Part shown: in pieces, positions 1,542 through 28,828 of the stretch | Layout: the number at the start of each line of letters is the position of its first letter | How positions within the stretch are numbered: position 1 is the stretch's first letter | IMG/VR virus record: IMGVR_UViG_3300028598_000004 | Coordinates: 1-31,614 of that record | DNA: 31,614 nt | Reading direction: 5' to 3' (one strand) | Source: a virus | Notes under the pieces: model-generated | Databases searched by the model: none | The model's input: the letters and a program-made list of their open reading frames with translations, nothing else | What the model was told of the DNA's origin: nothing | Program-made: the position numbers and the translations under genes

Positions 1542-1556
1542 ACTTATGAGGTAACA

Positions 1557-3206
1557 ATGTATAAATATGTAGAACTGGATGCGATCCTACCCAGTATAAA
1601 AACAGGACAACCACTCGCGTTTGATACCGAGACAGATGGCAAGTATGGAAAGATCTGCCTAGCTCAATTCTATCAAGCCCACTGGCCAGAGGTTCTTATG
1701 ATCAAGAACCCAGAGCCAATCCACCTCATGTCTATCCTAGCACAACTAACTGACACCATGCTTGTCATGCAAAATGCTAGCTACGACATCACAACAATAC
1801 AGCGACAAACAGGTAGTAGATTTATACCACCTAAGTTTGATGACACGCTTCTTCTGGCTCGCATTGCTTGGCCACAACTTCAAGGATACACTTTGGATGC
1901 ACTACTTGAGATAGCACTCAGGTATGATCCTTATAAACGCCTTGGTATTGACAAGAAGAAGATGCAAAAAGCTGTATGGACTACACCTATCATACCTGCT
2001 CTACAACTAAGGTATGCAGCAATCGATGTATTCCACCTCTTAGATCTTTATGAACAAGTCAAGAATGCTAAGTTAGATTTTAACTACATGCTTGACATTG
2101 TTTCTTTACGTGAAGCATTAGATTGGCAGAATAACGGTCAAGCTATTGATGCTGAGCGTCTTCAAGAGATGTATACAGCTAATCTTAGAGAGATTGAATC
2201 TTATGATCTACCTATCAATGTTAACTCCTGGCAGCAAGTTAGACCTTATATTGGTCAGGATGAATCTAATGGGTTAGCTCTAGCGACGTTTGCTTTACAA
2301 GGCAATACTAAAGCACGTAATGTGCGGACAGTGCGTAGCTTACTTAAGCTCAATTCTTTCTTAAACAAGTTTGATAACCCAGAGGGTATAATCTATGGAG
2401 TCTTTGGCCCTTACGCTAGAAGTGGACGATACACATGTCAGAATGACAATCTCCAGCAGTCTCCCAGAGCTACTAAGTCCTTATTTAGTGCAAGGCCTGA
2501 TAGATACATGCTGTATTCAGACTTCTCGCAGCTTGAACTTAGATCCATTACTGCAATTACGGGAGACCAGAGAATGGTTGAAACCTACAGAGCTGGTGGT
2601 GACATTCACGATCTCGTAAGAGATGAGTTAATGATTAGCAGACAGATTGCTAAGACTATTAACTTTAATGCTTTGTACGGTGGTGGTGTTGGTATGATGC
2701 GAGGTATCTTGATTAAAGATGCCGACATCTTACTAGACTTCAACGTGGTTGCTCGTGAGATGCGTAAATGGAAGAACCTCTTCCGTGGTGTTAGAGCGTG
2801 GCAAGAACAAGGTATTCGTGATTTCAATGGCGGACGCCTTGGTTCAACAGCTTGCGGGCGTAAGTATCGTGGTCGCATGATGACTGACCAACTAAATATT
2901 GAAAACCAAGGTACTGGTGCTGAAGTTGCAAAACTTGCTAAGCACTATATGTATCAGCCGTTGAAAGATTTAGACTGTAATATTGAGAACTTCATTCATG
3001 ATAGTTATATAATTGATTCACCTAATCATCCGTCTGTTCACAAGAAAGCGTCTAAGATTATAGCAGAAGCAATGAAAGAAGCATGGCATGAAGTTAGTAA
3101 GAATCTGAGAGTCAAGGACCTCCCAATGCCTGTAACAGTTCGTGGTGGCTATCATCACGGTGATATTGAAGCAGGTTCCCACACATTCGAATTAAAGGTA
3201 GACTAA
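1557..3206 (+). CDS. Family A DNA polymerase with 3'-5' exonuclease (549 aa)
   Basis: The start is ATG 1557 with GAGGT just upstream; an in-frame GTG at 1527 lies inside the terminator stem and is rejected. The exonuclease domain has DTETDG (D23, E25), NASYD (D77) and YAAID (Y153, D157). The polymerase domain has ARSGRYTC near 290, motif A SDFSQLELR (D322), motif B R362-x3-K366-x3-F370-x3-Y374-G and motif C IHDS (D482). All metal-binding residues needed for both activities are present. F370 sits at the position of E. coli F762 rather than the Tyr of T7. The usual HDE of motif C reads HDS. At 549 aa it is much shorter than T7 gp5 (704 aa), with only about 130 residues between exo III and the first polymerase motif, so thumb and thioredoxin-loop regions are reduced. 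It copies the phage genome with SSB and helicase. Confidence 0.95.
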   Translation: MYKYVELDAILPSIKTGQPLAFDTETDGKYGKICLAQFYQAHWPEVLMIKNPEPIHLMSILAQLTDTMLVMQNASYDITTIQRQTGSRFIPPKFDDTLLLARIAWPQLQGYTLDALLEIALRYDPYKRLGIDKKKMQKAVWTTPIIPALQLRYAAIDVFHLLDLYEQVKNAKLDFNYMLDIVSLREALDWQNNGQAIDAERLQEMYTANLREIESYDLPINVNSWQQVRPYIGQDESNGLALATFALQGNTKARNVRTVRSLLKLNSFLNKFDNPEGIIYGVFGPYARSGRYTCQNDNLQQSPRATKSLFSARPDRYMLYSDFSQLELRSITAITGDQRMVETYRAGGDIHDLVRDELMISRQIAKTINFNALYGGGVGMMRGILIKDADILLDFNVVAREMRKWKNLFRGVRAWQEQGIRDFNGGRLGSTACGRKYRGRMMTDQLNIENQGTGAEVAKLAKHYMYQPLKDLDCNIENFIHDSYIIDSPNHPSVHKKASKIIAEAMKEAWHEVSKNLRVKDLPMPVTVRGGYHHGDIEAGSHTFELKVD

Positions 3207-3207
3207 A

Positions 3208-3561
3208 ATGAGTACTAAACAATATGATAAGTATTTAGAAGATGAATATAATAAGCAAGTAGGTGATGATGAAGAACTTTATGTACCTAATAAAGAGTTC
3301 AAAACAGTAGCTGTTCAATATCCACGATTATTAATTAACTATACATTTATGACATTCTTTGATTGTAAAGTTGGTGATAAAGCTGTAGTTTTTACAGGTG
3401 GTAATTGGAATGTTGTTAGCATCGTAGAAGTACATGATGAACCACAATTGTCTGGTGGTTATGCTTATACGTGGTTAGTACAGATAGTAGATCGTTCTGA
3501 ATACGATAGACTGTGTATTGAATCACATGAAGGCATCCCATCCGTAGCGAGTAGATTATAA
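3208..3561 (+). CDS. Phage protein of unknown function (117 aa)
   Basis: Starts one base after the polymerase stop, with AAAGGTAG as ribosome site, and its stop shares one base with the next start (TAATG). The first 35 residues are acidic and polar (YDKYLEDEYNKQVGDDEELY). The rest looks like a small beta-barrel, with DCKVGDKAVVFTGG and NVVSIVEVHD resembling the strand-turn pattern of SH3-like domains. No catalytic motif or membrane segment is visible. Position between polymerase and the nucleotide-synthesis genes suggests an accessory replication or nucleotide-metabolism role, but this is only context. Confidence 0.7.
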   Translation: MSTKQYDKYLEDEYNKQVGDDEELYVPNKEFKTVAVQYPRLLINYTFMTFFDCKVGDKAVVFTGGNWNVVSIVEVHDEPQLSGGYAYTWLVQIVDRSEYDRLCIESHEGIPSVASRL

Positions 3562-4355
3562 TGCCTAGTCAATACGAAACAGACTATGCTGAGTTGGTCT
3601 CAGACATAATGGTGAATGGTGATGAAAGACCTACCAGGAATCATCCTACTAGATCTTTGTTTGGTAAGGTACTTACTGTTAACGAGTTATGTTACGGTGA
3701 GTTCCCTATCTTGCAAGGTCGTAGAATGTATCCTAGAGGTGTATTTGGTGAGTTAGCTGCATTCCTGAAAGGACCTAAGCACATAAAAGACTTCACTGAC
3801 GAAGGTTGTAATTATTGGAAGAAGTGGAGTGAAGCAGATGGATCAATACATGTTGACTATGGTAACAGTTGGCTTGATTTTAACGGTGTTAATCAGCTTG
3901 AGGCTGTACTCTCTTCACTCGCGGAAGATCCTAACGGGCGCAGACACATTATCTCTGGCTGGCGTCCTGATCGTCTTAGTAGTCTGTCTTTGCCTTGTTG
4001 CCATCTTCTCTACCAGTGGTATGTAAACAACGGTAGTCTTGAGATGATATGGTATCAACGTTCAGTCGATACTATGGTTGGTCTCCCGTCTGATGTCATT
4101 CTGGCAGCAGCATGGAACGTCCTTATGGCTGATCAATTAGGTCTTGATCCTGGTAAGTTGGTATTCATGTTAGGTGACACTCACATCTATAAATCACATA
4201 CATATGGAGTAGCAGATTACTTAGATGTAGTTCCTATGACTGATAATAATTGTCCACAGTACCTTCATGAAGGTACTCTGTACGATTTTAACTGTGACTC
4301 AATCGCCTTGATTGGTTACAATCCCTATAACCCTATCACTTTTGGATTACATTAA
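3561..4355 (+). CDS. Thymidylate synthase-family enzyme with dCMP-type Asp178; possible dCMP (hydroxy)methylase (264 aa)
   Basis: A full-length ThyA fold (E. coli ThyA is 264 aa). Seen in sequence: FGELAAFL with the active-site Glu, RRHIISGW with the phosphate-binding Arg pair, the nucleophile in LPCCH (C147, followed by H148), YQRSVD (Q166-R167-S168-V169-D170) and GDTHIY. Numbering runs one ahead of E. coli. E. coli Asn177 (GLPFN), which reads the uracil ring of dUMP, is replaced by Asp178 (GLPSD). The spacing R-S-x-D-x3-G-x3-D is the same as in T4 dCMP hydroxymethylase, where this Asp selects cytosine, and engineered Asn-to-Asp thymidylate synthases gain dCMP methylation. The enzyme may therefore make 5-methyl- or 5-hydroxymethyl-dCMP with methylene-tetrahydrofolate rather than dTMP. 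The C-terminus (ITFGLH) also differs from the usual loop that shields the active site. Family assignment is very secure; the substrate is inferred. Confidence 0.9.
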   Translation: MPSQYETDYAELVSDIMVNGDERPTRNHPTRSLFGKVLTVNELCYGEFPILQGRRMYPRGVFGELAAFLKGPKHIKDFTDEGCNYWKKWSEADGSIHVDYGNSWLDFNGVNQLEAVLSSLAEDPNGRRHIISGWRPDRLSSLSLPCCHLLYQWYVNNGSLEMIWYQRSVDTMVGLPSDVILAAAWNVLMADQLGLDPGKLVFMLGDTHIYKSHTYGVADYLDVVPMTDNNCPQYLHEGTLYDFNCDSIALIGYNPYNPITFGLH

Positions 4356-4356
4356 T

Positions 4357-4629
4357 ATGACTGAGAAACATGGAACTGATATACAAGCTACACTTGCTGA
4401 ACGTGAAGTCCAACATGGTTCATTTAGTGACCATGCTTATATAGAGCAAGATTTACGTGAGATACTAGAGGCTAATAGCACTCATCTTCCAGCAGTTCAT
4501 AAAATTGGTCTTGGTATGATACTGCATAAAATTGCTCGTATTCTGAATAGAGGTAATAATCATTCTGATACATGGCATGACATTGCTGGTTATGCGACCT
4601 TAGTAGAGCGAAGTATATTAGATGAATAA
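4357..4629 (+). CDS. DUF6378-type phage protein, possible MazG-like nucleotide hydrolase (90 aa)
   Basis: The chosen start is ATG 4357, one base after the previous stop; an in-frame TTG at 4312 lies inside that gene. The protein is all-helical, with EREVQHGSFSDHA near the start and LGMILHKIARILNRG followed by HSDTWHDIAGYATLVER near the end. These two blocks are the signature I recognise as the DUF6378 family of phage proteins. The H-K-x-x-R-I...D-x-W-x-D-I-x-x-Y pattern also resembles MazG-like and 'nucleotide modification associated' domains, all-helical enzymes that cleave NTPs to NMPs. Sitting between the TS-like enzyme and dCMP deaminase, it may trim a nucleotide pool (for example dCTP). 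Family call moderate, activity speculative. Confidence 0.65.
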   Translation: MTEKHGTDIQATLAEREVQHGSFSDHAYIEQDLREILEANSTHLPAVHKIGLGMILHKIARILNRGNNHSDTWHDIAGYATLVERSILDE

Positions 4630-5041
4630 GTGGAACCTACGTTACTTTGGTCTAGCACTTGAAGTAGCTACATGGTCTAAAGATCCTGATAAACAGGTCG
4701 GTGCTGTCTGTGTTTCGCCTGACAAGCGAAGGATAGTCACAGGCTACAATGGTTTTCCTGTTGGGATTGAAGACGATGAAGCGGCACTTAATAATAGAGA
4801 GCTGAAGAACAAACTAATGGTACATGCCGAAGCGAACTGTATAGTCAACGGTGTTTCATCACTACGTGGTTGGACTATGCATGTAACTAAAGCTCCGTGC
4901 CTTGGTTGTGCTAAGCTTATTATTAATGCTAGAATTAAACGGGTTGTTTGTCCCTCTCCAGGTGGATCCTGGGAAGATGAACAACTATTTGCAATAGGTC
5001 TTCTTAAGAAGGCCAATATAGAGGTAGAATTTTATGAATAG
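4622..5041 (+). CDS. dCMP deaminase-like zinc enzyme (139 aa)
   Basis: The cytidine deaminase fold is clear. GYNGFPVG near residue 41 is typical of dCMP deaminases. HAE (H68-A69-E70) supplies a zinc ligand and the catalytic Glu, and PCLGC (C93, C96) supplies the other two ligands. Known enzymes convert dCMP to dUMP, the precursor of dTMP. The gene overlaps the DUF6378 stop as ATGAATAA and the next start as ATGAATAG. Alongside a TS-family enzyme of altered specificity it may steer flow between dCMP and dUMP, as the T4 deaminase does beside dCMP hydroxymethylase. A preference for a modified dCMP cannot be excluded. Confidence 0.9.
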   Translation: MNKWNLRYFGLALEVATWSKDPDKQVGAVCVSPDKRRIVTGYNGFPVGIEDDEAALNNRELKNKLMVHAEANCIVNGVSSLRGWTMHVTKAPCLGCAKLIINARIKRVVCPSPGGSWEDEQLFAIGLLKKANIEVEFYE

Positions 5042-5240
5042 TAAATATGATATATATGAAGATGATTGTGCTGTATTAATAGCTATGTCAGCTTTATTAA
5101 ATGCTGAAGTTGAAGGTATGAAAGCTCTCAATACTGAACGAGCTAATAATGGTATGACTATAGCATATAGCGAATATCTTTTTTCTGAAGCTAGCAAACC
5201 ATTAAAAGAATACTTAAAAGGATTGGAAAAAAATGATTGA
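5034..5240 (+). CDS. Small acidic helical phage protein, unknown (68 aa)
   Basis: Joined to both neighbours by 8-nt overlaps (ATGAATAG at the start, ATGATTGA at the end), so it is almost certainly translated. The sequence is acidic and mostly helical (DDCAVLIAMSALLNAEVEGM, then SEASKPLKEYLKGLEKND). No metal-binding, catalytic or membrane motif is visible. Its tight coupling to the exonuclease start suggests a partner or regulator of that enzyme, but there is no direct evidence. Confidence 0.65.
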   Translation: MNSKYDIYEDDCAVLIAMSALLNAEVEGMKALNTERANNGMTIAYSEYLFSEASKPLKEYLKGLEKND

Positions 5241-6021
5241 CGATAAAATTGTATTACGACCAAGTTCATTAGATGAGTTTGCTCAATGTCCACAGAAGTG
5301 GCTTCGCACTTTCATTAACGGTGAGTCATCCTATGTCAACAGCAGAGCAGCGATTGGAACAGCAATCCATGCAGGTGTTGAAAACATGTGGAATGACTGT
5401 ATTCAAGTTAAGCAGAAGATCAAGTCGCCAAGCGCTATGGCTGATGCAGCAATGGAAGCTTGGAAGGAAGAAGAACAGAAAGGTATGCGATATGACAGTG
5501 GTGAGACTGAAGGCTCTTGTGCCAAAGAGATCATCACTGGTATGGATACATATATTGAAGATATTGTTCCTTGGGTAGACATTCCAACACATGTTGAAGT
5601 GCGATATACTGTTAACCTTGAACATGACTTAGTTGAAGGCATCTCAGGTCTTATGGACTATGTAGATACTGATAAGGGTATCATTGCGGATGTTAAGACT
5701 GGCAAGAGAAAGCACAATGTGACTAACTCTTCCACTCAACAATCCATCTACAAATACTTGGTTGAAGCTAACGGTGTGAAAGTTAACTGGAGTAACATCC
5801 AAAACGTAGTACTTAAGAAGAAGCCTGAAGGTCATGTCATGGATTGCCATATAGACATACCTAAAGCAAAATCTTTAGTGAATACGTTGCTTGACACACT
5901 GGACGTGTACCTGACAGACACTGTTGATCCTAACATACTGTTCAGAGGTAACTCTAAGTATTGGTTATGTTCACCTAAGTACTGTGCTTATTATAGTAGT
6001 TGTAAATTTGTAGGAAATTGA
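5233..6021 (+). CDS. PD-(D/E)XK exonuclease, Cas4/RecB-like, with Fe-S cysteines (262 aa)
   Basis: The nuclease core is seen as HAGVENMW near residue 50, then GLMDYVD (D142) and IADVKTG (D153-V-K155), the D...D/E-x-K metal site of RecB-family nucleases. A Cys at 19 (QCPQKW) and three near the C-terminus (C246, C251, C257) match the split four-Cys iron-sulphur cluster of Cas4 and AddB nucleases that pins the two ends of the domain together. Such phage enzymes act as 5'-3' or bidirectional exonucleases in recombination and in breakdown of host DNA, the role played by gp6 in T7. With the downstream helicase, ligase and VRR-NUC gene it forms a DNA-repair or recombination block. Start ATG 5233 overlaps the previous stop. 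Confidence 0.88.
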   Translation: MIDDKIVLRPSSLDEFAQCPQKWLRTFINGESSYVNSRAAIGTAIHAGVENMWNDCIQVKQKIKSPSAMADAAMEAWKEEEQKGMRYDSGETEGSCAKEIITGMDTYIEDIVPWVDIPTHVEVRYTVNLEHDLVEGISGLMDYVDTDKGIIADVKTGKRKHNVTNSSTQQSIYKYLVEANGVKVNWSNIQNVVLKKKPEGHVMDCHIDIPKAKSLVNTLLDTLDVYLTDTVDPNILFRGNSKYWLCSPKYCAYYSSCKFVGN

Positions 6022-6118: not shown

Positions 6119-6309
6119 ATCATTTTCACTTTAGCGGCAATATTAACATAACTGAAATAGATGTTTGTGATGGTAGAGGTATCACTACAAAAATAGTACT
6201 TAAAGAACCTATAACAATTAAACCAACTGATAGTCTAGCAGTACAGTATGATGAAATGACTAGAAAAGTTGTATTGTGCATTAACGGTGAACCACATGAA
6301 ACCATATGA
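6115..6309 (+). CDS. Small beta-rich phage protein, unknown (64 aa)
   Basis: ATG 6115 is coupled to the stop of the membrane peptide by a 4-nt ATGA overlap. A longer reading from 6046 would run through that peptide gene in another frame and has no ribosome site. The protein starts MNHFHFSGNINITEI and consists of short alternating strands (TKIVLKEPITIKP, TRKVVLCINGEP), likely a compact beta sheet. It overlaps the helicase start by 14 nt. No recognised motif is visible; it may be a helicase partner. Confidence 0.6.
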   Translation: MNHFHFSGNINITEIDVCDGRGITTKIVLKEPITIKPTDSLAVQYDEMTRKVVLCINGEPHETI

Positions 6310-7537
6310 TCATCAACTAGAGTTAGCTAATGAAGGCTATGACATACTGAAAGAACACATGATAGTGTATCTTGCTACAGAAGAACGCACAGGAAAGACT
6401 CTTGCATCTATATTGATAGCTGAGATGTGTGACAATATCAAGTCTGTATTAGTCCTAACAAAGTTAGGAAAAAACAGGAAAGTAATAAAAGGCTGGAAAG
6501 ACACACTTAAAGCGTTTCCACATGACAAAAAGTACACTGTTGTTAACTACCATCAGATGTACAAAGTTAGTCGTCATGATCTTTTAATACTAGATGAAGC
6601 ACACAATTATATCAGTGGTTGTCCTGATCAGCCTGCTATGCATAAGCATATACAACAATGGCTTAGTCCTCAAGTACCTATTATATACTTGTCAGCTACT
6701 CCACATGCTCAAGGCTATCAGATGTTGTATCATCAGTTTTCACTTAGCACATGGTCCCCATGGCGAAGGTATAAAAACTTTCGTCAATGGTTTAGTCATT
6801 ACGGTATTCCTACTGATATATACGTTAATCAGAAGAGACGTGCTATATACACTAATACACATGAAGATTTAGTCTTACCTGATATTAACCATCTCTTTAT
6901 AACTAGAACGCGTAAAGAACTTGGTTTCCCTCATGAGCCTATTGATAAGCTACATTATATAGAACTTGATCAAAGTACTAAAGAGATATATAATGAGCTC
7001 ATAAAAGATAAGGTTTATGAATGGGGTGAGAACGCTTTAGTATGTGATGTGCCTATTAAGTTGCGGTCATCATTACATATGCTTGAAGGTGGTGTAGCTA
7101 AAACTCATGTCTCAGCTGTAAAAACAAATGGTGAGGCGTACTTAAAGCCAGTATTTCACATATTTAATAATACAGAGAAGATTGACTATATTATGTCCAC
7201 ATGGGGTGATACAGAAGACCTTGTGATCTATTATCAATACATCGCAGAAGGAGCTAAGCTTAGGTATTATTTTAAGAAAGCACATGTACTTCAAGGTACT
7301 TCTAATGCAGAAGGCATTGATCTAGCTCATGTAGAAACTATTATAGTCTATTCACAGGACTTCTCTACAGCACGACACTCACAACGTAGAGCAAGACAAG
7401 CTGCGAAGCACCGAGATAAACCAATTACAGTACATTTCCTGTTAGTTAAAGAAGCTGTTAGTGCACAAGTGTACAAGACAGTGTCTATTAACAAGCAGAA
7501 CTTCGTTGACTCAGTATTTGAAAGGAAACTATTATGA
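6296..7537 (+). CDS. Superfamily 2 DNA helicase / translocase (413 aa)
   Basis: The start chosen is ATG 6296 (MKPYDHQLELA) with GGTGA 5 nt upstream; a TTG at 6269 in frame is less likely. A Q-motif-like YDHQ lies near residue 4, motif I is EERTGKT (K34, T35), motif II is DEAH (100-103), motif III is SAT (133-135) and motif VI is QRRARQ (363-368). The R-T-G-K-T P-loop and the QRRARQ arginine fingers resemble SNF2/DEAD-type phage helicases such as those beside RecB-like exonucleases. It would use ATP to move on or unwind DNA, probably in recombination-dependent replication with the exonuclease. Its stop overlaps the next tiny gene by ATGA. Confidence 0.9.
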   Translation: MKPYDHQLELANEGYDILKEHMIVYLATEERTGKTLASILIAEMCDNIKSVLVLTKLGKNRKVIKGWKDTLKAFPHDKKYTVVNYHQMYKVSRHDLLILDEAHNYISGCPDQPAMHKHIQQWLSPQVPIIYLSATPHAQGYQMLYHQFSLSTWSPWRRYKNFRQWFSHYGIPTDIYVNQKRRAIYTNTHEDLVLPDINHLFITRTRKELGFPHEPIDKLHYIELDQSTKEIYNELIKDKVYEWGENALVCDVPIKLRSSLHMLEGGVAKTHVSAVKTNGEAYLKPVFHIFNNTEKIDYIMSTWGDTEDLVIYYQYIAEGAKLRYYFKKAHVLQGTSNAEGIDLAHVETIIVYSQDFSTARHSQRRARQAAKHRDKPITVHFLLVKEAVSAQVYKTVSINKQNFVDSVFERKLL

Positions 7538-7623
7538 AAGTAGAAAAATTCATTGGTGGTCTTATACTTATGGTATTAGGCATTGCTACAATATTTTGGT
7601 TAATAGATCAGGTGATTGCATGA
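7534..7623 (+). CDS. Tiny single-pass membrane peptide (29 aa)
   Basis: ATG 7534 and TGA 7621-7623 overlap the helicase and the ligase by ATGA at both ends, with GAAAGGAA upstream as ribosome site. The product begins with a short charged stretch, MKVEKF, followed by an uninterrupted hydrophobic helix (IGGLILMVLGIATIFWLI) and DQVIA, giving one membrane span with a short inside N-terminus. It is the second tiny membrane gene inserted in the replication block (compare 6023-6118), and the two are not obviously alike in sequence. Function unknown. Confidence 0.62.
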   Translation: MKVEKFIGGLILMVLGIATIFWLIDQVIA

Positions 7624-8477
7624 AAGGCATGAAAGGTCAAGTAGTCCATCCAGACAAGCTTAAATTCCCACTTGGTGCGGAACGCAAGTTCGATGGTGTT
7701 AGGTTACACACGTTTGTTAGAGACGGTAAGGTTAGGTTCTACACGTACAACGGCAATAGGATACCACTTCCTAGGTTAGAAGCTCAGTTAGCTAAAGCAC
7801 CTACTAACACCATGCTGGACACTGAGATAGTATATAGAGACGGTTCTATGAAGTACCGTTCTAAGGTGTCAGGCATGATGAACTCAGCAAGGCAAGGCGG
7901 ACGTATTGATGAGCGTGAACTAACACTACACGCCTTTGACTCTATGCCCATACATGAATGGGATGCTAAGAGATGTAGTCAATTGTCTGTAGCACGATAT
8001 GCTGAGACTATGAAGATAGTACACGGTCTTGGTATGGACGCTCAAGTTAACCATGCTACAAGTCAGATAGTTAGGTCTGTAGAAGAAGTAGACAAACTGT
8101 CAGAAGACTTGTGGTTAATGGGCTATGAAGGGCTGATGCTTAAGGAGTTTAACCATAGGTATACGTTCACTAAGTCACGACTGTGGGCTAAGGTTAAGCA
8201 AGTCAAGACAGCTGATCTCATGTGCTACGACACGACAGAGGGTACTGGTTGGGCTGAGGGTTTGATTGGTGCACTTAAACTAATGGGTATTGTTGAAGGC
8301 AAGAATATCAAGGTTAAGACTGGCTCAGGTCTCACAGTTAATGATAGGCATAGACCAGCAAGTTATTATGTCGGCAACACTATTGAGATGAAGTATAACT
8401 CAGTGACTTGTGATGCTATTACAGGTCAGTATTCACTCTTCTCTCCTCGCTATGTGATGGTGAGATTTGACAAATGA
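7620..8477 (+). CDS. ATP-dependent DNA ligase, short form (285 aa)
   Basis: The start chosen is ATG 7620, coupled to the previous stop; the frame is open upstream to 7461 but that part overlaps the helicase. Motif I is ERKFDGVR with the AMP-accepting Lys23. Motif III is LDTEIV near residue 75, motif IV is YEGLMLK (E170) and motif V is LWAKVK (K191, K193). The C-terminal OB-fold region follows with TGSGLT and GNTIEMKYN. The protein joins nicks by the ligase-AMP route and seals Okazaki fragments and repair nicks. It is 285 aa against 359 in T7, because only about 20 residues precede the nucleotidyltransferase motif I. Confidence 0.93.
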   Translation: MKGMKGQVVHPDKLKFPLGAERKFDGVRLHTFVRDGKVRFYTYNGNRIPLPRLEAQLAKAPTNTMLDTEIVYRDGSMKYRSKVSGMMNSARQGGRIDERELTLHAFDSMPIHEWDAKRCSQLSVARYAETMKIVHGLGMDAQVNHATSQIVRSVEEVDKLSEDLWLMGYEGLMLKEFNHRYTFTKSRLWAKVKQVKTADLMCYDTTEGTGWAEGLIGALKLMGIVEGKNIKVKTGSGLTVNDRHRPASYYVGNTIEMKYNSVTCDAITGQYSLFSPRYVMVRFDK

Positions 8478-8788
8478 AAGAGCAAGCAATACAAGCCAAA
8501 GTACTGAAGTTCTTAAAAGGTAAGGGTTTTGCTAACTGTAAGATCATATCAGCTAACAAAGCTGGTATACTTGATATAATAGGTTGTGAACCACCACATG
8601 GCAGGTACTGGGAAATAGAAGCGAAGACGCCCACTGGGAAGGCGTCTAAGCTTCAAGAACATAGAGTCAGAGAGATACACCGAGCCGGTGGTGTATCTTT
8701 CATCTTCTATGGTTACGAGGACTTTCTAGTTAAGTTTAATGAGTGTACCGTCGTCCATACCAATAACGACGTAACCCTTGTTGATTAA
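8474..8788 (+). CDS. VRR-NUC domain nuclease (104 aa)
   Basis: Starts by ATGA overlap with the ligase. The VRR-NUC pattern is seen as GILDIIGCEPPHGRYWEIEA, then KTPTGKASKLQEHRV: the Asp of the G-x-x-D block, the E-x-K of the metal site (residues E51 and K53), then the G-K-x-S-x-x-Q motif. Stand-alone phage VRR-NUC proteins are structure-specific nucleases thought to cut branched or Holliday-type DNA, so this fits the repair and resolution block. The last 20 or so residues are coded in the part that overlaps, on the opposite strand, the end of the giant virion gene. Confidence 0.87.
   Translation: MKEQAIQAKVLKFLKGKGFANCKIISANKAGILDIIGCEPPHGRYWEIEAKTPTGKASKLQEHRVREIHRAGGVSFIFYGYEDFLVKFNECTVVHTNNDVTLVD
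8673..8698. other. Perfect inverted repeat at the convergence of the two arms
   Basis: AGATACACC (8673-8681) and GGTGTATCT (8690-8698) form a 9-bp perfect stem with an 8-nt loop. It is inside the VRR-NUC reading frame and, on the minus strand, 28 nt past the stop of the 1847-aa gene. In the minus direction it is followed by a pyrimidine-rich run without a T-tract, so it is at best a weak terminator for late transcription. It may instead be chance or a stop aided by other factors. Confidence 0.35.
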
Positions 8789-11700
8789 CCTTGCTTTATC
8801 AGTCTTACTAAGTTTAGTTAAGTCAGTACCATCCTTAATGATTTTAGAAGCAACTTCTGCAACTGCTATACGATGAACTGGTATACTGTCTGTCTCAACA
8901 GCACCTTCACTGTTTTGTGCAGACAGTCTACCACTCTTATCTTTGAACACCTTTATCTTAGTGTCAACCCTACCAGCATGCTTCTCAGCTGCAGCTTGTT
9001 CAGATAGTCTCTTTAGTGCTCCAGTAAGAGCAGCATCTTCCTTCGCTGTATCTAATGCATTCTGCACGTTAGTTGGATCCAACGGATCTTTTAGTAACTT
9101 AGTAGCAATCCTAACTAACGCAGAAGCATCACCTCTTGAAGTACCGGCTAACGTAGAAGCCTTATTGAAGATGGAACTGGCAATAGCAAACTGTGCTCTT
9201 ACAAAAGGATTAGTTGTCAAGTAACTAGTGAACGCATCTTCTGTGATCGTGCCTTTAGCAGCAATAGACAGTCGTACATCATTCTTGTACACCTCACCAA
9301 ACATCTCGGCCATCTCTCTAACAGCTTTTGCTTCCGGCCAAAGGAATTCAAAGTGTCCTAACTCTTCAGCTAACTGTGGAAACATGATTGCTTCAAAGCC
9401 TTGGCCTTTATTGAACGTGTGTTTCTCAACTAACTTGTTCATTACTAGAGCTTCTACCTTAGGTTGTATCTCTAGTGGTAACTGCTTAACAAATGACTGA
9501 TATGAACCATCTAGTGATCTACCGAACTTAACTAAAGTATTCGCAACCTTCTCTTCATCAAGCCCTGTAGTATAATACTTACTACCTTCTTTTCTGGTTA
9601 GCGTTCTATATAAGCCAGTCTTCTGAAGCTCATGCATCTCTTTAGCATCCATCAAGGCTCCCCAGTAGTTTTCTAACCACTGCTCGCCGCCAGGACCCAT
9701 ACGTTTGGACACAGCTTCTATCTCTTGGTCAATGCTTTCTAACATGCCATTAAGCTGGTTCCTAGTGTACTTTGGATTTCTTGGATCATCATACAGTTGC
9801 TGTACTTTATCACGGAAATCTAGTAAGCCACCAAAGGAGCGATCATCTGACTCCATACGAAGCTTCTCTAACTTCTTAGCAACTGATAGACCTTCAACTC
9901 CAGGTATTGAACCATCATACAGTTGATTGATGTAATCCTCTTTCATGTTAAAGCCGTAACCAGGTTCATACTTCGTGGTCTTGACTTTGTTTTTGAACTG
10001 AGGTAATACATTAGCTTTATTACCAGCACTATAACCTGCTGGTGTTAAGTCATTACCTGCTTGCTTCACTTGAGCAAGATTAGCCTCAGTCTCTTCAACC
10101 CATCTAGGTATGGCTTCAAGCAACTCCTCAACTGTATGTTTCTTACCGTGTACACTTAGTAGATCTTCTGTTACCTTACCCATCATGATAGCACGGTCGT
10201 GGATGTCATTACCAATAACAGCACCAGCACCAGGATTTTTATTAGCTATACCTTTTACTATCTCATCACCACCAAATCTAGTAACTGGTATAACTGCAAT
10301 GGCCTGCTCTTTCTCTCTCTTCGCAGTTGTCTTAACGTATCTTCTTGGACTGTACCAAGCACGCTCTAATACAGGTGCCTTTTTATTATTTAAGTGCTCC
10401 CACTTCTTAACAACCTCTCTTATCTCTGCTTTAGAAAGACCAGTCATTTTATTTAGTATATCGAAAGCACCTTCTACGTTACCATCAATTAAGTGATTGT
10501 AACCTTTTATTAACTGTTTTGCAAGTCCACCACCTAAAACACCAACGCCTATACCAATTGCATCACCAACAATAGATAGTTCTGCTGCACCAATAGCTCT
10601 ATCAACCGTAGTCTTCCAGTTGAAGTCTTCTTCTTGCCTAATATCAACTTCAAGCTGATCAGCCAATGAACCAGTTACAGCACCTACCATTGTCCAACCA
10701 CCTATAACACCCCATTGTACATATTTAGCAGCTGGATGTGGAACGCCGTTAATCCATCTTGTCATCTTCTGAGCTTTCTGAGCACCATACATAGCACCCA
10801 TTAAACCACCAACATCCATGTACTTTTCACCAGCTATACTTTGCATAGTAGATGGTGTTGCTGGCCACCAGAGTAACTCACCAGTCTCAGGATGCGGTAA
10901 CTTAACGTACCATTCGTCAGTTGCTAATGTCTGGTTACCAATCTTCTGACCTTGACCCTTCTGTAACTCTAAACCATTCTCAGCACCTTTCTTAACAACA
11001 AACTCAGTTAGTTTCTGATCTTGGTCAGCACGCCATGCGGCAGCCATGTTGTTACCAAACCCTTTAGCCATGAAAGAAAAGATCTTCCAGTTGTCTCTCA
11101 GGTTGACGTAGTCAGCAACTTGACCAGTTATCTCATTTAATGAAAGTCTCTCAGAATCTATCTCAGCTTGAAACTCTGCGTACTCTTCTGGATTATCTTT
11201 CCAGTATGCTTCTTGATAGATAGCATCAATACCACTAGGAGTGCTAGGATCAACCTCTAATTCAATAGCAATGTCTTTGATAGTGTCAGGAGTCAGTGTC
11301 TTATAACTAAGACCTCTGCCTCTACTTATATCATCTCGCATTAGATCATATTGCGATGCTAACGGTGCTGCTCTGTCATCACTACGTGGTCCTTCATGCG
11401 TAGCAAAATCAGCAGGATCCATTCCTCTAATTTTATTTTCAAATGCTTCTTGGTAATAAGCATCAATTTCTTCTGGAGTAACACCATGAGCTATAGCATC
11501 TTCTTTACGAGCTGCTTCATCTGTATCAGTTTTAGGATTCTCTGCTCTATATGCTTCGTATTCTGCTGGAGTAATGCCATTAGCAAGTGCTAACTCTCTT
11601 TCATCTTCCATATCTGTATTAGCAAATGCAGGTACAGTTAAAACACCAGAACCACCAGTAACCTTAGCTACTTTCTTTCCTGTAGGAAGTTTCATTTTTA

Positions 11701-14269
11701 AGTATCCATCTTCTTCAACTATTTCACCTTTGAATCTCTTAGCTAAGCTCTTGAACTTATTATACCAGATGCCACCTTTCTCATATTGTTTCTGTGGTCG
11801 ATTACCTCTACCTATATAACCAACACCATCAGGTTTTGATGTAAGCCATACTTCTGTCTGGCCATTTTTAATAGCATGTACAATCTCTTCTTGAAGCGCT
11901 TGCTTCTGCCAATCAAAGTCCAACCTAAACTTATTTGCATCGGGAAACTTCTCTAACGGCTTAAGCTCTTTCATACCGTCGTCAATCTTCTTATTGAAGA
12001 GTGTGTTTGCTTCAGCAATAAGATTAATTTTATCTTCTATATGAATAATATCGTCAGCTTCTTTTATAATATCTTTAAAGTCTTCATGTCTCTTAGCACC
12101 TTTATATGGCTGTAGGTCTACACCATACTTCTCGCTAAGTTCACTAAGAGTTTCTACTACTGCATTTGCATTGAGTTCGCCTTCTTCTTTAGATATACCT
12201 CGACCGCCAATAATACGAGCTTTGCGTTCTTCTGGAGTGACACGATACTTAGTAGCATCTTGTCGTTCTAATATCATCTCGCCTCTTTCACGAGCAAGGT
12301 GCTTTTTATAGATTGAGTCTAAGTTCTTAGTTTCATCTATAAGATCGCGTACTTGCGGCATTGTTCTGTTAATTCTATTAGCGATCTCTTCTACTACTTC
12401 AGTAGATGCCTCTAAATATTGATTATTATAATTAGCCCTTAATTCTGATAAGAATTGTACAGTTTCATCTGAATAGCCTTTACCTATTGCTTTATCAGGC
12501 CATAATTGATGAACTAGTGTATCTCTTACATTAGTTAGACTATAATTATCTTTGATTGCTATATTAAAGCCAATCTCATTATTAATCTCTTCTATGACCT
12601 TGTTGTTTGTTTTATTTCTCAGTTTTATAATTTCAGGACTATTAGTATTATAACGACTAGTACCTCCAGGACCTTTTAAACCAACGACATCAAAAGTCAT
12701 ATCCGCTGCAACTGGACCTTCTTTCCACTCATTTATAGCTTTAGCCCTATTACCTGCCATTGAATTGGATATGTCAGATTGCACTTCCTGAATGCGATGT
12801 ACACCAGCTTTGGGACTGTCTGTACGTGTAAAGAATATACCACCCCAGTTGTGTACATCTCTGTTATAACCCTTACGATCTACTGTTGGATCGTTATAAG
12901 CTTTAATAGCATATGTAGCATCATCAGTATCAGGCAATGTTGCTTCTCTAAATGCATCGGCTTCAAAGTCGTACCTAACATTACTTTGTACTTGACGTGT
13001 ATTATAGTTAGGTATAGTGATAGTCTCATCACCAGCTTCTACATGGACTCTTAGATTGTCATAAGACTGTTGAAGTTTATCTAAATGCTCTATTTTATCA
13101 GGATCTCTTTCAACAGCTTTAACGTCCATAAGAAATCTAGCTACTGATTCTGGATTATCAACATCTGGTGGACGCCAATTACGTTCATTTGCTATACGCG
13201 CGAATTCTTCTCCAGCATTGTCTACAAACTCTTGAGTAGTTCTAGTGAGATCTATTGTCTCAACAGTAGTTCTACTGAGATTATGGATATCAGTTTGCAA
13301 GTCTAACAGTTCTTCGAAGTTCTCAGCGGTGCCAAACTCTAACGTGCCATCATCTAATTGTGTTTTAATAGCTTCAACATAGTCATCAACATTCTCTAAC
13401 TCGACAGGACCATCCCAACGTACACCAAAAGTATCAATTAGTCTATTAAGACGATCACGCATAGCTCTAGGGTCTGAGCTATTAAAATCAATTAAGCGTA
13501 GTTTAAGATCTTCAAGATTTTCAGAGGAGTCTCGAAGTTTCTCTAGTTCTTCACTGTAATCTGGGTCCCATCGCTCTTCTAAGAAGTCCCCTACTTCAGC
13601 TTGCCTGTTATATAGTCGATCTAACGCAGTATCAATCCTCTCTACATCCACTGCTTCATTGTCATCAAACCCCATTACATCTTCCCACTCACGATGTAAA
13701 TTATCAAAGTTATACGTGTTATGTGCGCGTACTACATCTTGCATTTGTATGCTTGCTTTAAGTTCTTCAGCTTCTTCAATATACTCCATGTGCACGCCTT
13801 CACGTATTTCATCTCTAGCTGCAGCTGCATCATTTACTTGGAGTTGTTGCCTTTGTATATAACTATTTATATTATCAATGGTTAGTTCACCATGATCGTA
13901 ATCCCTAGTTACATATCCTTCTTGTCCTAGTAAGTCAGTCCAATGTTGTTCAGTATCTGGAGAATAACCTACACCGTCTATTGTATATGGTTTACCTTTA
14001 ACTTCTGTTACTTGCCAACCATCAGGTCTACCATTAGTTTTATAGTATTCTTGTAATTCAGGAGCACTTGAAATTTTATTTTCACTAAATAGTTTCATAT
14101 TGTTTGTCGCACGATTAATTTCTTCGTGTTTCACTTTACCGACAGCACTATTCACTATTTCATTAGGATTACCTTTAGGACTATTTTGTGTAAACCAATC
14201 AAGATGTTCTGCCCAAGCTGACTTAACAACTACACCTAACTTTTTAGCAGGAATTATTAATGCACTCAT
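8726..14269 (-). CDS. Giant internal virion / ejection-type protein with polyvalent-protein-like motifs (1847 aa)
   Basis: The last gene of the minus arm starts by an ATGA overlap with the portal stop. The first 450 residues are acidic and helical, with probable coiled coils. GGIFFTRTDS followed by HRIQEVQSDI (near 490-500), and later KQALQEEIVHAIKNGQTEVW with a Y/G-rich tract ending near WYNKFKSLAKRF (790-850), resemble the paired motifs of the large polyvalent proteins injected by phages and conjugative elements. Residues 900-1080 hold repeated acidic helix units (NGITPAEYEAY, HGVTPEEIDAY, GIDAIYQEAY). A glycine-rich hydrophobic stretch (about 1180-1260, with GVIGGWTMVGAVTGSL and GIGVGVLGGGLAKQL) could insert into a membrane. 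Size and position after the portal and two other internal proteins fit a T7 gp16-like role in DNA ejection. No lysozyme motif was found. The ejection role is inferred. Confidence 0.75.
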   Translation of the reverse strand: MSALIIPAKKLGVVVKSAWAEHLDWFTQNSPKGNPNEIVNSAVGKVKHEEINRATNNMKLFSENKISSAPELQEYYKTNGRPDGWQVTEVKGKPYTIDGVGYSPDTEQHWTDLLGQEGYVTRDYDHGELTIDNINSYIQRQQLQVNDAAAARDEIREGVHMEYIEEAEELKASIQMQDVVRAHNTYNFDNLHREWEDVMGFDDNEAVDVERIDTALDRLYNRQAEVGDFLEERWDPDYSEELEKLRDSSENLEDLKLRLIDFNSSDPRAMRDRLNRLIDTFGVRWDGPVELENVDDYVEAIKTQLDDGTLEFGTAENFEELLDLQTDIHNLSRTTVETIDLTRTTQEFVDNAGEEFARIANERNWRPPDVDNPESVARFLMDVKAVERDPDKIEHLDKLQQSYDNLRVHVEAGDETITIPNYNTRQVQSNVRYDFEADAFREATLPDTDDATYAIKAYNDPTVDRKGYNRDVHNWGGIFFTRTDSPKAGVHRIQEVQSDISNSMAGNRAKAINEWKEGPVAADMTFDVVGLKGPGGTSRYNTNSPEIIKLRNKTNNKVIEEINNEIGFNIAIKDNYSLTNVRDTLVHQLWPDKAIGKGYSDETVQFLSELRANYNNQYLEASTEVVEEIANRINRTMPQVRDLIDETKNLDSIYKKHLARERGEMILERQDATKYRVTPEERKARIIGGRGISKEEGELNANAVVETLSELSEKYGVDLQPYKGAKRHEDFKDIIKEADDIIHIEDKINLIAEANTLFNKKIDDGMKELKPLEKFPDANKFRLDFDWQKQALQEEIVHAIKNGQTEVWLTSKPDGVGYIGRGNRPQKQYEKGGIWYNKFKSLAKRFKGEIVEEDGYLKMKLPTGKKVAKVTGGSGVLTVPAFANTDMEDERELALANGITPAEYEAYRAENPKTDTDEAARKEDAIAHGVTPEEIDAYYQEAFENKIRGMDPADFATHEGPRSDDRAAPLASQYDLMRDDISRGRGLSYKTLTPDTIKDIAIELEVDPSTPSGIDAIYQEAYWKDNPEEYAEFQAEIDSERLSLNEITGQVADYVNLRDNWKIFSFMAKGFGNNMAAAWRADQDQKLTEFVVKKGAENGLELQKGQGQKIGNQTLATDEWYVKLPHPETGELLWWPATPSTMQSIAGEKYMDVGGLMGAMYGAQKAQKMTRWINGVPHPAAKYVQWGVIGGWTMVGAVTGSLADQLEVDIRQEEDFNWKTTVDRAIGAAELSIVGDAIGIGVGVLGGGLAKQLIKGYNHLIDGNVEGAFDILNKMTGLSKAEIREVVKKWEHLNNKKAPVLERAWYSPRRYVKTTAKREKEQAIAVIPVTRFGGDEIVKGIANKNPGAGAVIGNDIHDRAIMMGKVTEDLLSVHGKKHTVEELLEAIPRWVEETEANLAQVKQAGNDLTPAGYSAGNKANVLPQFKNKVKTTKYEPGYGFNMKEDYINQLYDGSIPGVEGLSVAKKLEKLRMESDDRSFGGLLDFRDKVQQLYDDPRNPKYTRNQLNGMLESIDQEIEAVSKRMGPGGEQWLENYWGALMDAKEMHELQKTGLYRTLTRKEGSKYYTTGLDEEKVANTLVKFGRSLDGSYQSFVKQLPLEIQPKVEALVMNKLVEKHTFNKGQGFEAIMFPQLAEELGHFEFLWPEAKAVREMAEMFGEVYKNDVRLSIAAKGTITEDAFTSYLTTNPFVRAQFAIASSIFNKASTLAGTSRGDASALVRIATKLLKDPLDPTNVQNALDTAKEDAALTGALKRLSEQAAAEKHAGRVDTKIKVFKDKSGRLSAQNSEGAVETDSIPVHRIAVAEVASKIIKDGTDLTKLSKTDKARLINKGYVVIGMDDGTLIKLN

Positions 14270-16134
14270 GCTGGCGCCTCATTCGTATTAGTTGGAAGTT
14301 TATTTTGTTGGCTCATATTCTTACTGTCGTCGCCACCTGATGGGTTTGCACCTGATGTTCCGTGAGCAATCTGTGCTGCTCCTTCTTCAGTTGGTACATC
14401 CTGGCTAATCATCTGCGCTGTCTCTTCAAAAAGTCTTGAGATCTCTGGAGAGTACTTAGTCTTCATTGTCTTCAAAGTGAGTGCAGAAATCTTAAAGAAG
14501 CCAGCAGGATTAACCTGTGCCATCATTTGACCCATCTGACCAGACATTACAGTCTCAAGCATAAGTTGAGTGCGTTCGTCTTCATCATTGTAGTTAACTG
14601 CTTCAATGCGAATGTCATGCTTTGAGTAAGCCAGTTCACTATTTGGATCAGGTACTGGTGCGAAGATCAATGCACCGTCATCACCAATCATTGGCTTGCC
14701 ATCTTCAGGATCATATACTTGCTCAAAGATTGGTTCCATGATAGCTTGACCAGTCTCTTGATCTATCTGACCAGACCATTTCTCAAGTGGCTTATTTATC
14801 TGTATGAACCTTTGTCCTACTATGTCATCAGATACTCTCAAGACTTGATCAGCAGTGAAGTACTGTTTAATTAGTGCTGATATATCCTGACCTAACAATT
14901 GATAGAAGTGTTCAATGCGCACAGTTAGGTAACGCAATGCCATGATTGTAGCATTCTGTTGTAGTTTAACCTTACGACCACTATCTGAAGCAAATGCCAT
15001 GCCTAAGAATGAATCATTGATATTCAGTACACGTTGTATGCGATCAAAAGCTTTGTCAATGATCTGATACTGTTCAATGGCATCAGCTGTTAGGTTTTCA
15101 ACCCTTATACCTTGTAGTTTTTTCACTGGTATGACGCCATTAACTCTATTAACAGCATCTGTGAACTTAGCAACATCTTTAACAGATGTAGTCTCTACGA
15201 ACACCTTTTGAGAGTTCGCCATCAACTGCAGCTTAATTAGTGCTTGGTTGATAGCTTTCTGAGTTTCTAGCACTTCATGGAAAATCCCATAGTACTCTTT
15301 GTAAGTGGAATGTTGTAACTTGACAACCCGGTAATCCCACTTAACTTCCTTGTATGTGATTTCCTTGCGTTCCAGCTCTACTTCATTGGACCAGTAGATA
15401 GACCACCGTTTACCCGCATCATCCTCAATAACAGTATGAACTACGAGATAGTTGTCAAATACTTTATAACGACCATAGAAGCCAAGTTCACCAAGACCCA
15501 TATAGTCGTAATCTGCTTCAGGGATCGCTAAATCATTGTTATTTGGTTCTAGCAGTCTCAGCTTAGCTTCACCAAACATCTTGACTACAGACTCCTTAGG
15601 GAGCCATTTAAAGCGATGTAAGAATCTTCCATCACTATAATCAACTTTAGTACTCAGTGGATCAAGAATGAGTTCATAATCAGGTACGCTTCCAATTCTG
15701 ATACCGTACAAAGGACGACCGAACTGATCACGTTCACCTGTCTTATATGGTTGTTGGCGTGTACACATCAAGCCGGAGATCATACCACCTAACTTAATTT
15801 GATCGCCTTGTACGTTCATGTGATTAACATCAAACACAGAAGAGATAGTATCCGTAACTAATGATGCAGTAGTTGAGTCTGAATATTGGACGGGATCAGC
15901 TACTGCTGTGTTCACAGTAGTTGAGTAGTAACCGACTAACATACGACTGAACAACTTAACAATGTTGAACGTCTCTACTGGTTGTCCACGATTTATTAGT
16001 TTGTTGATTGCATCGTCATTCCACTGTCTGTTGTGGTACATGTTCCATGCAATCTCAGCTTCGTGCCTGGATGCAGAATACTCATCGTATCCCAACCAGA
16101 AACTGTCTCTGAGTGTTTCAATATCAGTTTTCAT
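14266..16134 (-). CDS. Portal protein, P22 type (622 aa)
   Basis: The N-terminus has the pattern of P22-like portals: a helix with ARHEAEIAWNMYHNRQW near 20-40, then INRGQPVETFNIVKLF and MLVGYYSTTVNTAVADPVQY. The long stalk and wing regions follow, with helical segments around 290-420 and an Asp-, Gln- and Gly-rich C-terminus. The protein forms the dodecameric ring at one capsid vertex through which DNA is packaged and ejected. Its length is between the usual 550 and the 725 aa of P22 gp1. It overlaps both neighbours by ATGA. It is followed by the ejection-type giant and preceded by internal proteins, not by terminase as in most phages. Confidence 0.9.
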   Translation of the reverse strand: MKTDIETLRDSFWLGYDEYSASRHEAEIAWNMYHNRQWNDDAINKLINRGQPVETFNIVKLFSRMLVGYYSTTVNTAVADPVQYSDSTTASLVTDTISSVFDVNHMNVQGDQIKLGGMISGLMCTRQQPYKTGERDQFGRPLYGIRIGSVPDYELILDPLSTKVDYSDGRFLHRFKWLPKESVVKMFGEAKLRLLEPNNNDLAIPEADYDYMGLGELGFYGRYKVFDNYLVVHTVIEDDAGKRWSIYWSNEVELERKEITYKEVKWDYRVVKLQHSTYKEYYGIFHEVLETQKAINQALIKLQLMANSQKVFVETTSVKDVAKFTDAVNRVNGVIPVKKLQGIRVENLTADAIEQYQIIDKAFDRIQRVLNINDSFLGMAFASDSGRKVKLQQNATIMALRYLTVRIEHFYQLLGQDISALIKQYFTADQVLRVSDDIVGQRFIQINKPLEKWSGQIDQETGQAIMEPIFEQVYDPEDGKPMIGDDGALIFAPVPDPNSELAYSKHDIRIEAVNYNDEDERTQLMLETVMSGQMGQMMAQVNPAGFFKISALTLKTMKTKYSPEISRLFEETAQMISQDVPTEEGAAQIAHGTSGANPSGGDDSKNMSQQNKLPTNTNEAPA

Positions 16135-27426: not shown

Positions 27427-28400
27427 GGCGTACCTCTTACAGAGATGATACGCATGTTGAATTTAAACTCATGGGTGTCTGTTTTCGACAATGGAGTACC
27501 GTCAGAAACCTTAGTGAAGTAGGTGAACATACCGTAGTCAATGATTGGTGAGTAGATATAGTTTATGTCCCTCGGACCCCAATCAACGTCAGCTGTCCAT
27601 CGCGTTTCTTGCCAGTAATCACCACCAAGAACCCCACCATAAAAATATGCACCGCTGATTCCTCCCATCTCGATAGCGGTGGCGTCCTTGGCTTCCAATA
27701 TTGTTGGCGCACGGCTGGCAGTACCAGCGTAAGACTGATTGCCTTCGCCGTTCAGTCTTAGAACTGTTGTATGTCCTGCTGAGGAATTTTGCACTAAAAA
27801 CATACCTACTTCGTAGTCATAATCCTCCCCGCTGATATCCATGACACCGAAATTAGAGGTTACAGGAAGTTGGAATGTGAGCTTGTGGTCTATGGTCAAC
27901 TCGTCAAACGGCCCCTTAACTATTGGTGCTGGCATTACCTGTCTCAGTCCGGCACCTAAAGTCCCATTTGAACCAGTGTAAGCTCCACATATAACAAACT
28001 CATTGATCGTTCCTTCTCCAGAGGCGGGACTCCAGACATAAGACATAATACTTACTTTTTCATAATTTGGTGTGCCAAGGTTTGTTCTTGCTCCGACTAT
28101 TTGACTGGTATTCGAGCCTAAAACAGTTCCCTGTATGCCTGTCATTGTCTGAACCGTTGGTGTAGCACTGGTTCCAACGTAAGCGGTTGACAGTGGGGTG
28201 ATAAAGCTGCCGTTATAGTAACCAGTAAAATGTGCTATGCCTTGATCTAAGATCATGTTAGGCCGCCAACCAGTTGTATATTTAATACGACCATCTGGCC
28301 CACGCAAAGTAGCGCGAAACTCGCCTTTGTGTCCGACCTTAAGAGAAGGAACTCCATCTCTGATATGAAGCTCTTTATATTTAGGAATCCAAATGTCCAT
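27423..28400 (-). CDS. Tail protein, GC-rich paralogue (325 aa)
   Basis: The start is ATG 28400 in a TAATG junction; an alternative in-frame start at 28421 lies in the preceding gene. It starts MDIWIPKYKELHIRDG and is beta-rich with a Gly/Tyr-rich middle (GGISGAYFYGGVLGGDYW). Two lines counted here gave 45% and 47% GC, clearly above the neighbours. The shared block with the 309-aa gene shows common ancestry. The composition points to recent exchange of this gene from another phage, as often seen for host-range parts. Confidence 0.62.
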   Translation of the reverse strand: MDIWIPKYKELHIRDGVPSLKVGHKGEFRATLRGPDGRIKYTTGWRPNMILDQGIAHFTGYYNGSFITPLSTAYVGTSATPTVQTMTGIQGTVLGSNTSQIVGARTNLGTPNYEKVSIMSYVWSPASGEGTINEFVICGAYTGSNGTLGAGLRQVMPAPIVKGPFDELTIDHKLTFQLPVTSNFGVMDISGEDYDYEVGMFLVQNSSAGHTTVLRLNGEGNQSYAGTASRAPTILEAKDATAIEMGGISGAYFYGGVLGGDYWQETRWTADVDWGPRDINYIYSPIIDYGMFTYFTKVSDGTPLSKTDTHEFKFNMRIISVRGTP

Positions 28401-28828
28401 TAAATTAAATCCATTGTGCATGTATCATTAATTGTGATTGATATTTGTAGTGACTCATCTGGTGTATCACCTTCGACTAACAGATATCTGTTACTACCAC
28501 TTACTGGTCCAATAGCTGCAGTATTAAAGTCTTCACCAGCATCATCAAACAAATACCAACGCTTCTGTATGTATGAAGCACTTACTGGTCCAATAGCTGC
28601 AGTATTAAAGTCTTCACCAGCATCATCAAACAAATACCAACGCTTCTGTATGTATGAAGCACTTACTGGTCCAATAGCTGCAGTATTAAAGTCTCCCCAG
28701 ATTTCTCCCATCTGTCCACCTGATACAGTGGCTGAAAAGACTAAGCCATCTGATACATCTACCGGATACAATGTTGTAGTTAAGACGATGGTTTCTTCAT
28801 CGCTAAACCACATGTAAATCGCTGCCAT
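28400..28828 (-). CDS. Small tail protein with internal 27-aa tandem repeats (142 aa)
   Basis: The N-terminal 45 residues start MAAIYMWFSDEETIVLTTTL. Then come two identical 27-aa copies (DFNTAAIGPVSASYIQKRWY LFDDAGE split by a space here only for length) and a third, shortened copy that runs into GSNRYLLVEGDTPDE. The end is a short beta segment. Neighbours are tail genes and both junctions are TAATG. The unique parts could be a complete small beta protein, so the repeats look like a recent expansion. Confidence 0.62.
   Translation of the reverse strand: MAAIYMWFSDEETIVLTTTLYPVDVSDGLVFSATVSGGQMGEIWGDFNTAAIGPVSASYIQKRWYLFDDAGEDFNTAAIGPVSASYIQKRWYLFDDAGEDFNTAAIGPVSGSNRYLLVEGDTPDESLQISITINDTCTMDLI
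28501..28694 (-). repeat. 81-bp exact tandem duplication with a third partial copy
   Basis: Copies at 28501-28581 and 28582-28662 are identical over all 81 bases. A third copy, 28663-28694, matches for 32 bases and then diverges. The period is a multiple of three (27 codons), so loss or gain of a unit keeps the reading frame. Confidence 0.97.

Follow-up and report, generated by a model that had tools for sequence, protein, structure and literature searches.

A Thymidylate Synthase-Family Protein with Asp at the Pyrimidine-Reading Position Is a Candidate dCMP C5-Methylase of KF-1-Like Podoviruses

INTRODUCTION

In the DNA of Xanthomonas phage Xp12, 100% of the cytosine is 5-methylcytosine (5mC), and about 90% of type II restriction enzymes do not cut this DNA (PMC7653180). 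Stenotrophomonas phage AXL1 is closely related to Xp12; of 31 enzymes, only 5 cut its DNA, and the authors called the mechanism unknown (PMC9206674). AXL1 is a 64-kb siphovirus in which genes for a pyrophosphatase, a thymidylate synthase (TS) family protein, a dCMP deaminase, and a dihydrofolate reductase (DHFR) lie side by side; it serves here as the proxy for Xp12, whose methylase is compared only through AXL1. For the dCMP hydroxymethylase gp42 of phage T4, the ternary structure defines a hydroxymethylase signature, namely, Asp or Glu three residues before the catalytic Cys, Ser or Thr two residues before Tyr, and absence of the TS tail (PMC6400193).

In the MetaGPA study, most TS genes from environmental contigs with modified cytosine encoded Asp at position 177 (E. 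coli ThyA numbering), and N-to-D mutants of TS shifted in preference toward dCMP (PMC8670742). In the same study, position 147 of TS was differentially conserved in modified contigs, and the modified-contig TS co-occurred with PRA-PH, dCMP-deaminase, and MafB19-like domains and was linked to a hydroxymethylcytosine carbamoyltransferase; DNA ligase was another associated domain (PMC8670742).

RESULTS

The window, the whole 31,614-nucleotide stretch of viral DNA analyzed here (IMG/VR record IMGVR_UViG_3300028598_000004), encodes a TS-family protein with the following features.

3561 to 4355, plus strand: TS-family candidate dCMP C5-methylase, 264 amino acids (PF00303 [Thymidylat_synt], 1e-56; PHROG 160, 9e-68)
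3999 to 4001, plus strand: codon for catalytic Cys147 (E. coli Cys146), from alignment; invariant in 88 of 88 homologues
4092 to 4094, plus strand: GAT codon for Asp178, the pyrimidine-reading residue (E. coli Asn177, T4 gp42 Asp179), from alignment; Asp in 85 of 88 homologues

MAFFT alignment with E. coli ThyA and T4 gp42 paired C147, H148, R167, S168, and D170 of the window protein with E. coli C146, H147, R166, S167, and D169, and D178 with E. coli N177 and T4 Asp179. The original prediction, that a TS-family enzyme here carries Asp in the dUMP-reading position, was borne out by this pairing; its residue numbering (C147, R167, S168, D170, and D178) was exact, as was the R-S-x-D-x3-G-x3-D spacing that ends in Asp as in T4 gp42. 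The window motif reads Y-Q-R167-S168-V-D170-T-M-V-G174-L-P-S-D178, with G174-L-P-S-D178 encoded at 4080 to 4094. An AlphaFold2 model (pLDDT, 95.5) superposed on E. coli TS at 1.7 Å with a TM score of 0.91 (Foldseek).

By its fold and its catalytic Cys, Arg, Ser, Asp, Glu, and Tyr, the protein belongs to the TS superfamily (PF00303). It resembles ThyA of E. coli and L. casei in fold, in length, and in all catalytic residues except that at 177, where it has Asp178 rather than the Asn of dUMP-specific ThyA; it differs further in having Ser for Phe176 and an altered tail, and in that its gene lies in a module with dCMP deaminase and pyrophosphatase. W86, D170, L144, and a C-terminal tail of TS length are all present and constitute the TS-type reductive apparatus expected of an Xp12-type dCMP methylase. 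The end of the tail diverges from that of TS (FGLH versus APVAI), which counts against a dCMP methylase. As had been anticipated, automatic annotation would call the gene thyA: the protein scored 141.9 bits against the cutoff of 108.35 bits for the NCBIfam thymidylate synthase model TIGR03284, and the majority of related phage genes are annotated as thymidylate synthase.

The nearest annotated relatives, with 46 to 52% identity, are in Edwardsiella phage KF-1 and its kin, Dickeya phage Amaethon, Pseudoalteromonas phage PH1, Vibrio phage VPMS1, and two Manatee Spring podoviruses. A search of IMG/VR gave 80 loci, the top one 79% identical to the window protein. Among 88 homologues, E. coli-equivalent E58, W80, Y94, L143, C146, H147, R166, S167, and D169 are invariant, while at position 177, 85 sequences have Asp and 3 have Asn. 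Because Asp is so conserved, chance or sequencing error is excluded as the source of Asp178. The three Asn sequences (L011, L024, and L029) each lie on their own branch, and L011, which shares 63% identity with the window protein, falls inside the window's well-supported seven-member clade; from this placement, the Asp-to-Asn change probably happened more than once. A whole-record search of 50 phages found one TS gene per record. A second, canonical TS in ct1fd225 (MW202744.1, 329 to 1339, annotated as "bifunctional DHFR-thymidylate synthase") was rejected, since the product gave no TS alignment; the annotation is a probable error.

An ordinary TS that tolerates Asp and still acts on dUMP would account for the conservation of the fold and the remaining TS residues, and for the existence of the Asn relatives. 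Against it, Asp is nearly fixed in a clade where pairwise identity is often only about 50%, the Asn-to-Asp change shifts TS toward dCMP (PMC8670742), and the Asp clade has a genome-wide palindrome signature (see below). We consider this explanation very unlikely.

The original prediction left the choice between methylase and hydroxymethylase open. T4 gp42 (19% identity) shares with the window protein the TS fold, the catalytic Cys, Arg, Ser, and Asp, and the cytosine-reading Asp. The water-activating Asp145/Ser94 signature of T4 gp42 is absent from the window protein, which has Leu144 and Val98 at those positions and retains Trp83, Leu143, His147, and the TS-length tail; Trp83 and the tail are lacking in T4 gp42. 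The same holds across the 88 homologues: position 143 is Leu in every one, and the residue two before Tyr94 is Val, Leu, or Ile, never Ser or Thr. Absence of the signature together with a TS-length tail favors 5-methyl-dCMP over 5-hydroxymethyl-dCMP as the predicted product. Dihydrofolate (DHF) as a product of methylation would also fit the DHFR genes of AXL1 and of some Asp records. A T4 gp42-like dCMP hydroxymethylase, with phage DNA containing 5-hydroxymethylcytosine or a derivative, would share the Asp and its spacing, would fit an Asp-clade palindrome signature equal to that of T4, and would agree with the carbamoyltransferase tie of the MetaGPA contigs (PMC8670742); the residues at the two signature positions, together with Trp83 and the tail, argue against it, as does the lack of any glycosyl- or carbamoyltransferase among the annotations of the complete KF-1 and VPMS1 records. 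We regard it as unlikely. A search for Tet/JBP dioxygenases gave no match, and its control likewise gave none.

The gene lies in a replication module that the window phage has in common with KF-1 and its kin.

1554 to 3206, plus strand: family A DNA polymerase, adjoining the TS gene (PF00476, 2.5e-22; synteny with KF-1, PH1, and VPMS1)
4357 to 4629, plus strand: DUF6378 protein, 90 amino acids, four-helix model, possible substitute for a nucleotide pyrophosphatase (PF19905, 6.7e-8)
4622 to 5041, plus strand: dCMP deaminase, 139 amino acids, PF00383 fold with HAE and PCxxC zinc motifs intact (PF00383, 6.7e-19; PF14437, 7e-12; PHROG 174, 3e-43)
5233 to 6021, plus strand: PD-(D/E)XK exonuclease, conserved in the module (PF12705, 1.7e-16)
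6296 to 7537, plus strand: SF2 helicase, conserved in the module (PF04851, 1.6e-5; PHROG 62, 1e-36)
7473 to 8477, plus strand: ATP-dependent DNA ligase, conserved in the module, start codon uncertain (PF01068, 9.5e-15; PF14743, 1.9e-5, below its cutoff)

The usual order is polymerase, TS with Asp (TS-Asp), pyrophosphatase and/or DUF6378, dCMP deaminase, PD-(D/E)XK exonuclease, helicase, and ligase, and several annotated relatives have a VRR-NUC or endonuclease gene downstream of the ligase. The whole-record search found DHFR in a small number of records, of both the Asp and the Asn kinds; the matches in L016 and L046 are weak by Pfam. In four records, a gene for a T4 gp1-type dNMP kinase adjoins TS-Asp; these true neighbors were kept, and most other phrog_139 kinase matches were dropped as short, Walker-A-sized alignments in 750-residue open reading frames (ORFs). 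In PHROG family 38514 (L019, 8804 to 9430), the N-terminal part matches a MazG-like pyrophosphatase and the C-terminal part matches a dNMP kinase-like protein, so some phages may have the two activities in one fused protein. In the 31.6-kb record of the window, which is probably incomplete, neither a 5-methyl-dCMP kinase nor a proven dCTPase was seen, which counts against a dCMP methylase.

DUF6378 occupies the pyrophosphatase slot in the window. Among 73 distinct loci, 22 had only DUF6378, 34 had only a PF18909-like dATP/dGTP diphosphohydrolase domain, 17 had neither, and none had both. The PF18909-like domain is often fused to the deaminase, as in KF-1 (NC_019420, 17611 to 18219) and about half of the clade. 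This mutual exclusion is what suggests that the roles are interchangeable and that DUF6378 is a functional stand-in for the pyrophosphatase. DUF6378 as a recognized MazG relative was discarded, since its AlphaFold2 model had no PDB match and hhalign found no similarity to MazG or to the PF18909-like domain.

Of the 47 Asp records, 41 contained a deaminase; in the 3 Asn records, one of which (L011) is a 4.7-kb fragment, none was detected (whole-record search of 50 phages). The association of Asn with deaminase absence (naive p = 0.004) involves only two or three independent pairs and loses significance once the tree is taken into account; it is suggestive only. In L011 (2025 to 2237), a single DUF3310 protein stands in place of DUF6378 and the deaminase; a DUF3310 domain is also annotated in T3 gene T3p13.

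The T-even dCMP deaminase accepts 5-methyl-dCMP. A route to dTMP in reversed order is conceivable, in which TS-Asp would convert dCMP to 5-methyl-dCMP and the deaminase would convert that to dTMP, with the dUMP intermediate avoided and no DNA modification. The distribution of the deaminase and the single TS gene in each record are in its favor. Several points speak against it: VPMS1 and Kolga (both complete) and L019 (near-complete) are Asp genomes without a PF00383 match, the link between Asn and deaminase loss involves only the three records, and the palindrome signature is left unexplained. Furthermore, AXL1, which is Xp12-like, has retained a deaminase beside its TS while Xp12 DNA is fully 5mC, and a neighboring dCMP deaminase thus appears compatible with full replacement of cytosine. 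This route is quite unlikely in our judgment.

The Asp at 177 expected of an Xp12-type dCMP methylase is present in both the window protein and AXL1, and core genes of the AXL1 cluster are in common with the window's clade. The two TS proteins are only about 26% identical, and that of AXL1 differs in having Pro at 147 and longer inserts, as well as a DHFR gene in its operon; the window's group is one of podoviruses of roughly 40 kb. With the modified contigs of MetaGPA the window shares Asp177 and the domains PF00303, PF00383, PF14437, and PF01068, and its relatives share PRA-PH. His147 is invariant in the window's TS clade, whereas position 147 was flagged in that study, and the His147-bearing TS-Asp may therefore be a subclass separate from that in the MetaGPA sample.

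Palindromic sites tend to be lost from phage genomes under type II restriction. Avoidance was expressed as the observed-to-expected ratio (O/E) of C-containing six-base palindromes, with a maximal-order Markov expectation. With controls chosen by hand or taken from among the relatives of three polymerases, and with p values that ignore phylogeny, O/E was 0.83 to 0.985 in 12 Asp-clade records versus 0.40 to 0.80 in 10 phages without a TS-Asp gene (U = 0, p = 9e-5; no overlap), and the median was 0.895 in 40 dereplicated Asp contigs versus 0.525 in 12 control contigs (p = 6e-7). The difference was also seen in phage pairs matched by host: 0.985 for VPMS1 (Asp) versus 0.51 for VP93 on V. parahaemolyticus, 0.98 for PH1 (Asp) versus 0.80 for RIO-1 on Pseudoalteromonas marina, and 0.91 for Amaethon (Asp) versus 0.72 for BF25/12 on Dickeya. 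T4 (0.90) and AXL1 (0.89), which likewise shows little avoidance, were similar to the Asp clade. The window record itself (0.83 ± 0.05) is near the boundary with the highest control (RIO-1), and two Asp contigs had lower values (L074, 0.66; L047, 0.74). In the 20-kb Asn contig L024, six-base palindromes were as unbiased as in Asp contigs, which is a point against. Four-base palindromes were set aside for poor separation of the groups (T4 itself, 0.78), and AT-only palindromes were unfit as an internal control, as they show no avoidance even in T7. These palindromes are fair evidence that the DNA of the Asp clade is shielded from restriction; they do not prove the chemistry.

Three further proteins of the window lie elsewhere, all on the minus strand. 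In an 801-residue protein (22310 to 24715) adjoining structural genes, a repeat like GITDTIDIVDNDATINRSRNV occurs many times over; within the structural region, a small ORF (28400 to 28828) includes a nearly exact tandem repeat (EDFNTAAIGPVSASYIQKRWYLFDDAG); and an 1,847-residue protein without a Pfam match (8726 to 14269) adjoins a P22-type portal gene (14266 to 16134).

DISCUSSION

The Asp residue, its conservation, the module common with AXL1, and the fact that the clade avoids palindromes only weakly support the predicted action on dCMP, and the window protein is very probably a TS-derived, dCMP-directed enzyme. That the window phage modifies the cytosine of its genome is likely. The whole explanation, in which a TS-derived dCMP C5-methylase makes 5-methyl-dCMP that becomes 5mC in phage DNA and protects it from restriction, we hold to be the probable one. 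From the residues, conservation, synteny, and palindrome avoidance observed here, we infer the substrate, the product, its incorporation, and the roles of the neighboring genes.

In the proposed mechanism, Asp178 would pair with the amidine edge of cytosine (N3 and the 4-NH2), and Cys147 would attack C6 of dCMP. Methylene transfer from CH2-THF would proceed in the usual TS way with Glu64, Trp86, and Tyr100, and, given the TS-type active site and tail, hydride would reduce the methylene to methyl, yielding 5-methyl-dCMP and DHF. Once phosphorylated, 5-methyl-dCMP would replace some or all of the cytosine in phage DNA at replication, and the modified DNA would thereby be protected from type II restriction. 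The neighboring deaminase would most likely turn excess dCMP into dUMP, from which the host enzyme would make dTMP, and DUF6378 (MazG/PRA-PH in relatives) would probably trim competing nucleotide triphosphates.

The original prediction implied that the Asp idea was new; Asp177 had already been published as a marker of cytosine-modified phages (PMC8670742). TS-Asp as such is thus of a known kind, and what seems notable is that it spans a podovirus group with cultured isolates and natural Asn relatives. In the literature searched, we found no report of cytosine-modified DNA in the group of KF-1, VPMS1, PH1, and Amaethon and no restriction digests of KF-1-like phages. More tentatively, and with somewhat less than even confidence, we propose that the KF-1-like podoviruses, whose cultured hosts belong to at least four gammaproteobacterial genera, join Xp12 and its relatives as a second group of phages with genomes of 5-methylcytosine, made by a His147-retaining TS-Asp subclass; that some lineages have gone back to dUMP by Asp-to-Asn change and deaminase loss; and that DUF6378 is a new family of nucleotide pyrophosphatases.

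If the proposed explanation is true, a widespread and partly cultured phage group (KF-1, VPMS1, PH1, and Amaethon) would carry cytosine-modified DNA, which would explain its evasion of restriction and would hamper cloning and digestion of the DNA of these phages. The group would also supply new enzymes for the production of 5-methyl-dCMP and, given the close Asn relatives, would allow the Asn/Asp specificity switch to be tested cleanly on natural variants.
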